A stretch of 64,000 nucleotides of DNA from positions 2,723,586 through 2,787,585 of the forward strand of contig JARUPZ010000007.1 of NCBI GenBank assembly GCA_031213475.1, read 5' to 3'. The position numbers and the translations under genes were made by a program. Under the pieces are notes generated by a model. The model searched no databases, was not told where the DNA came from, and worked only from the letters and a program-made list of their open reading frames with translations. Positions within the stretch are counted from its first letter, which is position 1; every line of letters begins with the position of its first letter. This stretch comes from Nereocystis luetkeana. Taxonomy: Eukaryota; Sar; Phaeophyceae; Laminariales; Laminariaceae. Shown in pieces: positions 1 to 64,000 of this stretch.

Positions 1-282
1 TACCTGGATGATGCTCACCCCTTCAATTTCGGGGCTACGCTTTCCTTTAAGCAATACAGTAGTCCATGTCTCCTACCAGGTATGCGCCAAGACATGCGCG
101 AGCATCGAAGACTAGACCACTACTACTCGCTTTTAGCAATAGATCAGTAGCCCATGACTCAGTTTTCTCCGTGATCATTTTTACTCAAAACAGACGTGCA
201 AGGGTTTTACCTGCGTCTCCCTTTTCAACTTGCGACACCCCCCGGCTTTCATGCCACCCACATCCCGAAGGGGAACCTTGTA
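1..282 (+). repeat. TA-bounded ~280 bp repeat, copy 1
   Basis: This segment recurs in reverse orientation at 5522-5811, nearly base for base. Both copies start TACCTGGATGATG and end AACCTTGTA, so the unit is bounded by TA on both sides, as expected for a small element inserted at TA. Copy 1 begins at the window edge, so its outer limit cannot be seen. It lies in an intron of the DOCK gene. It is non-coding; its short open frames are only conserved because the repeat is. Confidence 0.8.
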
Positions 283-361
283 CGAGTATATAAAATCGTT
301 TTTTCTGCCCCCTCCCTACCGCGGTGAACTCTCCCTCTGCTTTCGTGCCGTGTTACGATAG

Positions 362-523
362 GCGGGGGCGCGACTTGGGGAAGCGGCGTTGCCGCTGTTG
401 GCAAACGACGCCTACAGGGAGACCCTTGGGGTGGCGCGGTTCGAGAGGGACTACAAGGTCATGGCGCAGGCGCACAACGAAATCCACCGTTTCATGAAGA
501 AGGCCATGCAGCAGGAGAACGTG
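362..523 (+). CDS. DOCK exon (DHR2 lobe A end), 54 codons
   Basis: Acceptor ..GATAG before 362 and donor GTACGT at 524. It encodes a helical segment ending FMKKAMQQENV. Joined to the next exon it runs straight into GLGGIGAFFRVGFWG, as in DHR2 domains. Phase 0 at both ends. Confidence 0.8.
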
Positions 524-60119: not shown

Positions 60120-61700
60120 ACGTACGCTGATTTACTTTTTCTTCTTTGGGGTGTATGATGTGTAGCAGTTGTCGTGATGCGTACTCCGTTGATTTCTCAT
60201 GGTCCCAGGACCCTGGACAAACACGGTCAATCGTCTGCCCCAGCCCGTGTCGAGGTGGTCTCAGGTTAGATACGGCAAGACAACTTCATGCCGAGCAGGC
60301 GGTTCCACGAGGATGGTCGAGAAACTTCCAAGCTGGCAACGGGGAGAGGTGCCAGAACTTATCCTCCTGGCGCTCCCGCCGTAGCGAAACAAACAAGGCC
60401 TGGTGACCCTCTGCAGGTCCACGTAGAGCCCGTGGTACATGATGGTAATATCGAGGAGGCGTTGTACGATGATAGAGGTCCACCCCAATTTTTCTTAGAC
60501 TCCTCACCTGAGGAGGTCCGTACCTCACCCGAAATTGACTTTATTTAGCAAAAATCAAATTGCATCCCGATGAATAATCCCATGCCCCACTTACTTATAC
60601 AAAAGCGTCATTTTTCGAAACAAAATTGGCATTGCGACGGTTTTTTCGGAGACCGTTCATTCAAAAAACATTTTATTCAGCGGGAATGTGGTACCTCTAT
60701 CATCGTAGAGCGCGTCAAACCCTATCACGTTTTTAACGAAACACTTCATCAGATTTCGGAGGCCACACGCTTGATGTTTAGGCGTATTGAAAAAAATGGA
60801 TTTTCACGGACAAAACACCGTTCGTGGCTCGCGTTTTACTTGTTTTCAGAATGTACTACCTACCTGATTTTGACCCCGGGTATTTTCCCGCGGGTAACAC
60901 CTGACAAACAATATCTGTGAGTTCTACACGACATTCATACCCGTACCGGAACTTGTGTAAGTTCTGTATGGACCGTGCTACAACACCCGGGGTATGGACA
61001 CAACAGTTTTGTACGTACCCGAAACTTTTGTGTGTTCTGCACGATATTCATACCCGGACCCGGAATTTGTGAAGGAACTCCCTACTAAGCTAAAGGGGGG
61101 GGTAACACATTGATCGATTAATCATCAGCACACAACAATCCTCCAAACACCCCCCCCCGCTACGAACGGCGGGATATTTGGGGCGTCGGTACCGCATACG
61201 GCCGTGCGCTGACCTACCCGCTTCGTTTCAATACCTGGGGAACCAGGAAGATATTATATATGTATATGTTGCTCAGGGACACACGTGCAAGGGCTTCAAA
61301 AACATAAACGTTCGACGTGTGATTCGAACCCGTGTTCCGCCGCCGACGCCAAATGTGAAGGTGGTTCAGATATACCTGGTATGTATTATGCTGGTAAGAG
61401 ACAGGGATATCGATGCTGGGTCAAGCGCGCTGCTTGTGGTAGCTCCCGATCTTGTTATTACTGCTCCTCAAGTGAGTTGAGGGGGAGAGAGAAAGCTCGA
61501 GTGAGCGAGGGTGGGTTTCGCCTGGAAAACAACAACTAACTTAGGCCAGACATTGTGACCAAAACTATGCTGTATTAAGGCATGAGTCTATACCATAAAA
61601 ATATCTCCAAACTAAAACAGAAGGGTCTGCTCTCAGGGGGGTGTCTACTACTACTGTTGTTGTAGAGGGGGTTACGGGTTCCGCTGAATATTCCACAGCG
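60120..61700. other. No gene seen
   Basis: No recognisable exon. ACCCG.....TTTTGT.CGTACCCG.AACTT.TG.GTGTTCT-type text repeats loosely twice (about 60915 and 61005). A possible upstream lipoxygenase 5' region could lie here but cannot be identified. Confidence 0.35.
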
Positions 61701-61739
61701 TGGATGATAGACAAATAGCCCAATAGTCGTTTAATTGCT

Positions 61740-64000
61740 TTCTATCGCAAATGACTCTCTATTGTGGTCCCTAATTCCAGTTAATTGAAAGGCCTCGAGC
61801 TTTATTATCTAGACAATTTCGATTGAATGACCCCTACCTGGCCCTATTGTCCAGGCAACTCCATTTTATAGGCAGTCGCCGTAATCAATCGTCCGGACAA
61901 TTCCAATTAATGGACCTTGTCCTCGATAATTAGTCTGGCCAATTCCAATTGACAGACCGTCTGCTGAATCAATTGTCCCGGCAATTCCAATGGACAGACG
62001 CCCTCCGGAACTACTGTAGTTGTCGGGACCATTTCAATTATTAGACTGCCGCCAATATTATTTGTCCCGACAATTATAATTAATAGACAGTCTCCCAGAT
62101 CAATTGCCCCTACAATCCCACTTTATACACGGGCTCCGAAATCAGTTGTCCGGACAATTTGAAGTAGCCGACTGCCTTCTAAATCAACTGTCTGGGCAAT
62201 TCCAATTAGTAGACAATATACAAAATCCCAATTATCCGGACAATTTCGACTATTATTACAAAATCTCCAAAATCGCGTCTTCAGAGAACGCCTTTGGTAG
62301 GCAGTCTGTCGAATCAATTACCCGTATATTTCAAAACATCATTGCACACGGATTATTTGGTTTCTTGAAACGTTTTTTAATGATTTACATCCGAGCGCAT
62401 GGGCTGCATCAAAACGGCTTACGTGCGGACATAAAATACAAAGCTAAAGTTGAGGTGTCCCGCCTTTTTCTGCTTATGCCTTGGACAATAGACCTATCAA
62501 TAGACTAGTTAAGCTAAAGTTTAAGTGTCCACCTTTTTCTGCTTATGCCTTGGACGTTTAAGTGTCCACCTTTTTCTGCTTATGCCTTGGACAGTATACC
62601 TATTAATATACTATTTATTGCCCCTACAACAGAGTCACGAAGTTATATATACGAGTATGTAGTATATATATGCCTATTAATTGGAATTGCCCGGGCAAGT
62701 AATGTCTAAATACTGTCTATAAGTAGCAATTGAAGGTGGTCAGACTATTGATCTTGAAATACTGTCTACTTACTATTAGATTACGGACAATTGATATATC
62801 GGGTACTGTCAACCAATTGGAATTGTCCTGACAAATAATTTTGGAGGCTCTCAATCAATCGAAATTGCCCTGACAATTGGTTTCAGAGACTACTCATTAA
62901 TTGGAATTGTCCGAACAATAATTGATGTTACGTGCTTCTAACTAATTGGACTTGTCCAGACAAATGAGCTCGGAGACTGCTTGTTGATTGAAATTGTGCT
63001 GGCAAACGATTTTTGTCTATTAATTCTAATTCTATTATTGCTTGAACAATTGATTTCTGGTGATTTACATAAATTGGAATTGTCGGGGCAACCGCTTTGA
63101 GAGACCGCCCATTAATTGGAGTTGTCCGAACAATTGGTTTCGGAAGCGATACACTAATTGGAATTGTCATGACTATTGAGTATCCGAGGGCAGTGCTATT
63201 TGAAAGCCGGCAGCTGCTTGCAGAATTACAATTGATTTGGTACATAAATACCATGCTATTATTGCCTCTCATCTACAACTGGATTGGGAACTTCCCTGTA
63301 TACGCAATCATTTGCAAGGTCCTTGACTGCGCCATATTACGACTATAATCTATTCACTGGGGATTTCGGATCATAAGATAATAATAGGTACACGGCCATG
63401 ACATTTATTTATCGAGCGATTGATTTCTCGCGCGGCATCTGAAATGACTTGTGCGGACAATTCCAACCACTTTCCAATCGCCGAAGTCCGTTTGGATAAT
63501 TCCATTTAATTGACAGTAGCACCCGAAATCAGTTGTTTGGACAATTCCATTTAATAAGCAGAATACGATTTCAATTATTCAGTACAAGTCATATTAACAG
63601 ACAGCTCCCGAAATCAATTGTCAGGACAATTCCAGTTAGTTGACAACACCCGAAATCAATTGCCCGGACAATTCCAAGCATTGGCCAGCACCCGAAATCT
63701 ATTTGCTGGATAATTCCTACCTGGTATTAATTACCCGTCTCCGCAATCAATTGTTTAGACTATTCCAATTCATAGAGAACACTCGAAACCTATTGCTCAC
63801 ACAAGTTCAATTCATAGATGGTCTTCGAAATCTTTTGACTGGATAATTCCAATTCATAGACAATCGCCGAAATCAATTGTATGGACAATTTCAATTCATA
63901 GACGGTCGCCAAAACCAATTAATTGTCAAGACAAATCCAATTAACACAGCCTCCTGGATTTGATTAATTGTACACACAATAGACTATTGAAATAGGAATT
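61740..64000. repeat. Satellite based on the palindrome AATTGTCCGGACAATT
   Basis: Degenerate units of about 45-60 bases: CAATTGTCCGGACAATTCC, AATTAATAGAC, then AGTC..CCGAAAT. Left block (61740-62300) and right block (63430-64000) run in one orientation; the middle block (about 62680-63190) runs in the other (GTCTATTAATTGGAATTGTC). The array continues beyond the window. Confidence 0.85.
62439..62606 (+). repeat. Short tandem repeat within the satellite, 3 units
   Basis: GTGTCC(C)ACCTTTTTCTGCTTATGCCTTGGAC occurs three times (about 62455, 62527 and 62565), the last two directly adjacent. Confidence 0.85.

Follow-up and report, generated by a model that had tools for sequence, protein, structure and literature searches.

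What multiplied a single 9-base word in the genome of the brown alga Nereocystis luetkeana is the question raised by a stretch of 64,000 nucleotides (assembly GCA_031213475.1, contig JARUPZ010000007.1, forward strand, positions 2,723,586 to 2,787,585), which was analyzed at its full length and is here called the window. The word, TACCNGGTA, consists of TA, CCNGG, and TA and mostly reads TACCWGGTA. We show that TACCWGGTA is a 7-bp insertion at TA, and it is very probably the excision footprint of a DNA transposon of the Tc1/mariner-superfamily type (including pogo), produced by CCAG(G) overhangs joined around an A.A mismatch.

The window contains 33 exact copies of TACCNGGTA, compared with a mean of 0.66 and a maximum of 3 in 100 dinucleotide-preserving shuffles. 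The over-representation claimed in a preliminary description of this DNA is thus confirmed, albeit at about 50-fold rather than about 30-fold, and 32 of the 33 positions listed there are exact, the word placed at 9889 starting at 9890. Among window words composed of four bases, any base, and the reverse complement of the four, TACCNGGTA ranks first, with the runner-up reaching a count of 8. The central gap is strict (TACC-N1-GGTA, 33; N0, 3; N2, 2; N3, 0). All but two of the words are A/T-centered, as described before (31 of 33; exceptions at 5664, G, and 43301, C), and in a 264-kb set comprising the window and 20 sampled 10-kb loci, cut from 20 contigs at the same fixed coordinate and containing a further 63 words, W occupied the center of 91 of 96 scars and S that of the other 5. 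Equal frequency of A and T at this position was dropped as evidence, since in a palindromic word an A on one strand is a T on the other. Across the assembly (465,085,209 bp in 1,987 contigs, with the window on contig C7), 193,277 copies were counted versus 3,643 of the same pattern reversed. The genome-wide excess for which the preliminary description had proposed a count is therefore present; it is near 190,000, and the density is one word per 2.4 kb.

Filled and empty versions of the same site reveal how the word arose. Each word was collapsed to one TA, the joined flanks were aligned, and a gap-free homolog across the joint was required. This was applied to 107 sites; the overlapping loci L004 and L005 had been left out beforehand, and L007 and L008, which overlap in part, were retained. 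A homolog in either state was found for 22 of them, and for 15 of these 22 a homolog was shorter by exactly 7 bp (10 sites empty only, 5 in both states, 7 filled only), in agreement with the filled and empty sites noticed earlier. Control TA words of four classes yielded no empty state among 24 sites with a homolog. Clear pairs within the window are 5664 and 140 (inverted repeat), 22805 and 22637 (direct repeat), 58733 and 10358 with sister copies of a miniature inverted-repeat transposable element (MITE), and 63718 (tandem array). Insertion at TA with duplication of TA, as in the Tc1/mariner superfamily including pogo, is what these sites display.

The insertions were selective with respect to their targets. 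In 215 distinct left flanks, pooled from both strands and compared with the flanks of all TAs, position -7 was A/T in 84% versus 52% (chi2 95), position -6 was A in 50% versus 25% (chi2 73), and position -3 was A in 40% versus 27% (chi2 20). Shifts at -2 (C, 31% versus 22%) and -1 (T, 7% versus 19%) are shared with control words, the latter also with TACWGTA, which leaves just -7, -6, and perhaps -3 as specific positions. No -7/-6 signal was present around TACWGTA, TACKMGTA, TACCGGTA, or TACGTA. The preference reappeared around TACCAGGGTA, an 8-bp variant of the scar (-6 A, 81%; -7 A/T, 94%; n = 16), and decayed words retained A/T at -7 in 79% (n = 56). A palindromic target preference is likewise a property of the Tc1/mariner superfamily including pogo, yet we know of no family with such a preference at -7 and -6. 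TACCGGTA was rejected as a scar of the same family for want of target preference, although one of its two testable sites had an empty homolog.

The scars also age and accumulate. In the 264-kb set, the enrichment of one-substitution neighbors of the word was mostly due to transitions: T>C at word position 1 (18 versus 4.8 expected), A>G at position 2 (23 versus 4.4), and C>T at position 3 (12 versus 4.1). Two transversion classes were raised as well (A>C at 2, 11 versus 3.6; C>G at 4, 11 versus 5.2). Summed over positions, the excess of single mutants was about 62, 44 of them by transition, versus 91 intact scars. Under a simple model with evenly spread ages, this ratio would mean that about 40 to 45% of the scars are still exact and that perhaps 450,000 events took place. 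Five of 75 neighbor distances were exactly 7; these are nested scars, formed at a TA that belongs to an earlier scar.

These observations suggest the following course of events. A cut-and-paste element of the Tc1/mariner-superfamily type, including pogo, would insert at TA and duplicate it. On excision, its transposase would cleave precisely at the 3' end, and 4 to 5 nt inside the element on the opposite strand, leaving each flank with the 3' overhang CCAG(G). The overhangs would pair in register, with C-G and G-C pairs flanking an A.A mismatch, and ligation followed by mismatch repair would give CC(A/T)GG between two TAs, so that the site would exceed its empty form by 7 bp. A one-base slip in pairing would give the 8-bp scars CCAGGG, CCCTGG, and CCATGG. 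The regular scar indeed has the composition of both tips plus a central mismatch base. The middle base, formerly described as variable, is not free to vary: it is W, the outcome expected of an A.A mismatch.

The off-by-one joints point to the sequence of the tip. For CCAG(G), A.G and G.A mismatches should produce CCAGGG, CCCTGG, CCATGG, or CCCGGG between TAs, whereas CCTGG should produce CCTGGG, CCCAGG, CCTAGG, or CCCGGG. The general pattern TACCNNGGTA occurred 28,845 times genome-wide versus 4,918 for its control. Its first 100 occurrences, which all lie on contig C1, comprised 34 AG/CT (8 from one tandem array), 13 AT, 14 CG, 16 GA/TC, 9 GG/CC, 5 AA/TT, 4 TG/CA, 2 GC, 2 GT, and 1 TA. Genome-wide, the A-type slipped set TACCAKGGTA was enriched 10.7-fold (8,727 versus 818) and the T-type set TACCTRGGTA 2.6-fold (955 versus 367), and on this difference the element tip is predicted to be CCAG(G), with which both 4-nt and 5-nt overhangs are compatible. 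The earlier proposal of ends beginning with CC fits and is thereby sharpened. Both TACCAGGGTA sites with a homolog have an empty counterpart, in one case a loose match. A flank-score scan also peaked at CCAGG; it was trained on the same scar sites, and its peak is not independent evidence.

Filled and empty sites, target preference, decay, nested scars, and off-by-one joints together support the excision-footprint reading, and the earlier suggestion of a scar left by a TA-targeting Tc1/mariner-like element stands. We infer overhang length, repair route, and number of events from the scars, and that the element was very active would follow from their number. It is tempting to speculate, though only tentatively, that a single family inserted roughly 200,000 to 450,000 times and that nearly all of these insertions were excised again, with next to no copies left. 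Excision would then have far outrun re-insertion, perhaps because the family was cleared by the host or by a domesticated transposase.

The search for intact TA-flanked elements with CC...GG ends, called for in the preliminary description, covered the window, a paired-gap alignment over about 288 kb (best 45 of 149 candidate pairs), and scans for terminal inverted repeats (TIRs), one of which covered all C-starting ends in full. Among the matches listed, no CCAG-ended family was seen; the one candidate, the single-copy locus L034:2562-8691, emerged from the transposase loci described below. In L012, L015, and L037, inverted pairs starting with CC belong to larger inverted duplications, other CC pairs proved to be two scars or scar-bearing repeats, and a possible 25-bp mini-element at L007:2208 was discarded because it has the tips CCTGG, not CCAGG.

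Of three transposase domains searched, DDE_1 alone had matches (28), and five 9-kb stretches around DDE_1 genes (L033 to L037) were examined. In L034, TA-flanked ends TACCAGGTGCCTGTCAATACATACCGGA and TACCAGGTTCCTCTCATTAAATACCTGA begin with CCAGG, are identical at 23 of 28 positions, and lie 6.1 kb apart, enclosing a gene with DDE_1 and HTH_Tnp_Tc5 domains, the Tc5-type helix-turn-helix being barely above the cut-off. A search with this gene gave 55 matches, most of them unnamed; named relatives occur in Ectocarpus, Phaeothamnion, and Pinguiococcus. The locus is a candidate relic of a pogo-like element, judging from its ends and gene, and a narrower form of the excision-footprint reading holds that the scars stem from a pogo/Tigger-like family of which it is a surviving remnant. 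In favor of this, the CCAGG tip had been predicted before the transposase loci were examined, and a related gene resides inside a CAG-tipped TIR family matching a second scar word (see below). Against it, convincing TA-flanked ends were lacking in the 9 kb of L033, L035, and L036, and no TIR was seen in L030 and L032. The ends in L037, on the left of L029, and in L031 are CAG rather than CCAG, and on its right flank L034 agrees with the target preference at -7 only. On balance, we regard descent of the scars from an L034-like family as doubtful.

The second word, TACWGTA (TACAGTA/TACTGTA), occurs 162,074 times genome-wide versus 54,742 for its control, about 3-fold, and 32 times in the window (e.g., at 1065, 12302, and 12307). 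Six of 14 sites with a homolog show a state shorter by 5 bp. It looks like a second, three-base scar class, with a weaker excess than that of TACCWGGTA and without the -7/-6 preference. A 2,612-bp TA-flanked element at L037:4151-6762 has perfect 20-bp TIRs, CAGTGGGGGGCCCTATATAG, around a DDE_1 pogo-like gene. TIR plus TA recurs in 27 exact genome copies, 18 of which form nine facing pairs 1.06 to 2.61 kb apart. A three-base C(A/T)G scar calls for a CAG tip such as this family has, and this would support the rule that tip equals scar in this genome. Separately, the words TACGAGTA/TACTCGTA numbered 54 versus 9.6 expected in the 264-kb set (in the window at 281, 1265, 5281, 12598, and 7 more places). 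They have no target preference, and one of six sites had an empty homolog, a loose one; we take them to be reminiscent of a Minos-type four-base footprint.

Several observations weigh against an excision footprint. A single word, TAGGNCCTA, accounts for 19 of the 24 control sites, and one control class had no testable site. For 7 of the 22 testable sites, filled homologs alone were found, and a few alignments among the 15 with an empty homolog are loose (L002, L016, L012:8820, and L012:8827). The bias at -1 and -2 recurs around the plain control TACGTA and is thus nonspecific. The overhang model does not predict the GA/TC class (TACCGAGGTA/TACCTCGGTA), and the T-type slipped set is itself enriched. 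No multi-copy CCAG-ended element was detected in the about 300 kb covered by the window, paired-gap, and TIR scans, among the matches listed, so that intact source copies would appear scarce relative to the scars and the element rare, extinct, or diverged. In the genome, the DDE_3 domain had no matches, and neither had mariner Transposase_1, whose control was likewise silent, so that its absence is not shown. A genome search with up to 3 mismatches, made for the two L034 ends, found them in single copy. An end match as good as theirs is expected about 0.02 times by chance, or in about 1 of 50 such searches (1 of 110,850 null comparisons after exclusion of 18 exact self-matches from the overlapping L032; 2,214 pairs in four loci).

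Among explanations that dispense with excision, generation of the 7 bp without a transposon, for instance by templated or untemplated insertion at a broken TA during repair, would be in line with the missing abundant source element. We nevertheless consider it improbable, since the fixed sequence and a preference reaching 7 bp from the TA imply a sequence-specific enzyme and the off-by-one class follows overhang pairing. That the word was multiplied as part of other amplified repeats is still harder to sustain: a minority of sites do share a filled homolog (the 7 filled only and the 5 in both states), and 74 and 5730 are one duplicated scar, but there are 215 distinct left flanks, and 85 of the 107 sites have no gap-free homolog in the sample. 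Least credible is a functional palindromic site, such as a regulatory or nuclease motif kept by selection, which the near-palindromic form and fixed center class might suggest and which is refuted at the filled/empty sites, where the word is a 7-bp TA insertion missing from sister copies, as well as opposed by transition decay, nesting at distance 7, and the many unrelated contexts.

The probable excision footprints of the window are listed in Table 1 together with its other features. The MITE family with ends near TTACGGGGG(A)CC is abundant, one 14-mer end occurring 29 times in 288 kb on both strands. The exons of the lipoxygenase gene are closest to those of brown algae (Undpi1, read as Undaria, 62%; Ectocarpus, 60%; Ascophyllum, 58%; best 7,998 candidates scored). 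None of the 12 scars in its span falls into the exon pieces (1,665 bp), where about one would be expected; these numbers are too small to indicate exon avoidance.

Table 1. Probable footprints, empty partner sites, and other features of the window
Feature	Position	Strand	Remark
Scar TACCAGGTA	74..82	none	same scar as 5730 via inverted duplication
Empty site TA	140..141	none	partner of scar 5664; arms 95% identical, exact 7-bp difference
Scar TACCTGGTA	4877..4885	none	exact word match
Scar TACCGGGTA, center G	5664..5672	none	empty partner 140 in inverted repeat
Scar TACCTGGTA	5730..5738	none	in both inverted-duplication arms, with 74
Scar TACCTGGTA	9890..9898	none	exact word match
Scar TACCAGGTA	10358..10366	none	within MITE copy; sister copies empty
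Two nested scars, common TA (11277, 11284)	11277..11292	none	exact word matches
Scar TACCTGGTA	12094..12102	none	exact word match
Scar TACCTGGTA	12631..12639	none	exact word match
Scar TACCAGGTA	13844..13852	none	exact word match
Scar TACCTGGTA	15317..15325	none	exact word match
Scar TACCAGGTA	21022..21030	none	TACAGTA overlaps
Empty site TA	22637..22638	none	partner of scar 22805; direct repeat 93% identical
Scar TACCTGGTA	22805..22813	none	empty partner 22637
Scar TACCAGGTA	27041..27049	none	shorter repeat copy near 26820 has CA, not TA
Scar TACCAGGTA	27607..27615	none	exact word match
Two nested scars, common TA (30184, 30191)	30184..30199	none	exact word matches
Scar TACCAGGTA	40043..40051	none	exact word match
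Scar TACCTGGTA	40180..40188	none	exact word match
Scar TACCAGGTA	40928..40936	none	followed by TACCTGG without TA
Scar TACCTGGTA	40972..40980	none	followed by TACCAGG without TA
Scar TACCAGGTA	43089..43097	none	exact word match
Scar TACCCGGTA, center C	43301..43309	none	exact word match
Scar TACCAGGTA	45057..45065	none	followed by TACCAGG without TA
Empty site TA	47422..47423	none	sister MITE copy of 58733
Scar TACCAGGTA	52036..52044	none	exact word match
Scar TACCTGGTA	53447..53455	none	exact word match
Scar TACCTGGTA	56708..56716	none	exact word match
Scar TACCAGGTA	57423..57431	none	exact word match
Scar TACCAGGTA	57455..57463	none	exact word match
Empty site TA	58064..58065	none	sister MITE copy of 58733
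Scar TACCTGGTA	58733..58741	none	within MITE; sample alignments 23 gap-free empty, 3 filled
Probable 8-bp scar variant TACCAGGGTA	59365..59374	none	by word class; site without empty partner
Scar TACCTGGTA	61373..61381	none	exact word match
Scar TACCTGGTA	63718..63726	none	42-bp tandem array; local spacing 91 = 84 + 7
TA-flanked MITE family, ends near TTACGGGGG(A)CC	1137-1245, 10310-10433, 47374-47482, 58017-58124, 58685-58800		~110 bp
Short inverted-repeat elements, ends TTAACCCTTTTAG	35061-35161, 44847-44890, 47221-47321		piggyBac-like TTAA flanks by eye
Exons resembling DOCK-type (DHR-2) gene	2050-15500	plus	by eye
Lipoxygenase gene, many small exons	36854-57650	minus	protein similarity; 12 scars in span
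42-bp tandem array, GGACAATTCCAATTA-like units, both orientations	61846-63960		contains scar 63718

Excision footprints are usually observed singly, in assays, and are as such already known; what is new here is their scale and the length of the tip. None of the four spellings of the word was found as a whole word in the literature searched, and a genome-wide footprint family was not described in the titles and abstract openings among the matches listed. A single word would mark about 190,000 past excisions in one genome, and its scars might allow the age of a (nearly) vanished transposon, its choice of insertion sites, and the outcome of repair to be estimated statistically. The 7-bp indel class would have been among the main contributors to variation in this alga, frameshifting where it falls in exons. 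Counts of TA-X-TA words thus offer a cheap detector of former transposition that might escape repeat annotation.

Among known systems, piggyBac, with its TTAA target and seamless excision, is ruled out by the TA target and the scar. In the Sleeping Beauty/Tc1 group, the mismatch likewise lies at the center, there of CAG/CTG. Sleeping Beauty and mariner transposases place their nick three nt within the element, and the footprints of Sleeping Beauty match its overhangs exactly (PMC7827188). The N. luetkeana scars share with this group the TA target, its duplication, and a footprint that equals the 3' overhang from the tip (PMC7827188). They differ from it in having five bases, CCWGG, instead of three tip bases between the TAs, in the -6/-7 preference, and in that no abundant source was found. 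Pogo/Tigger elements, combining DDE_1 with a Tc5-type helix-turn-helix, are represented by genes in this alga and in Ectocarpus, one of them within CAG-tipped TIRs. Unlike the 0- to 4-bp footprints given for the pogo-like Passer (PMC9976928), the scar here measures 7 bp, and a CCAG-ended pogo family is a candidate only. For Ectocarpus, likewise a brown alga with elements of the Tc1/mariner superfamily, the families TcMar-1, TcMar-2, and TcMar-N1 are reported as mostly MITEs in a paper whose main text lacks the words footprint and excision (PMC12477816). Plant Mariner/Stowaway footprints contain tip sequence plus the retained TA duplication (PMC4561436), and in this the scars of N. luetkeana resemble them. 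Unlike the small insertions and deletions recorded there for Stowaway and Mariner elements (PMC4561436), they form one dominant 7-bp class of nearly 200,000 copies.

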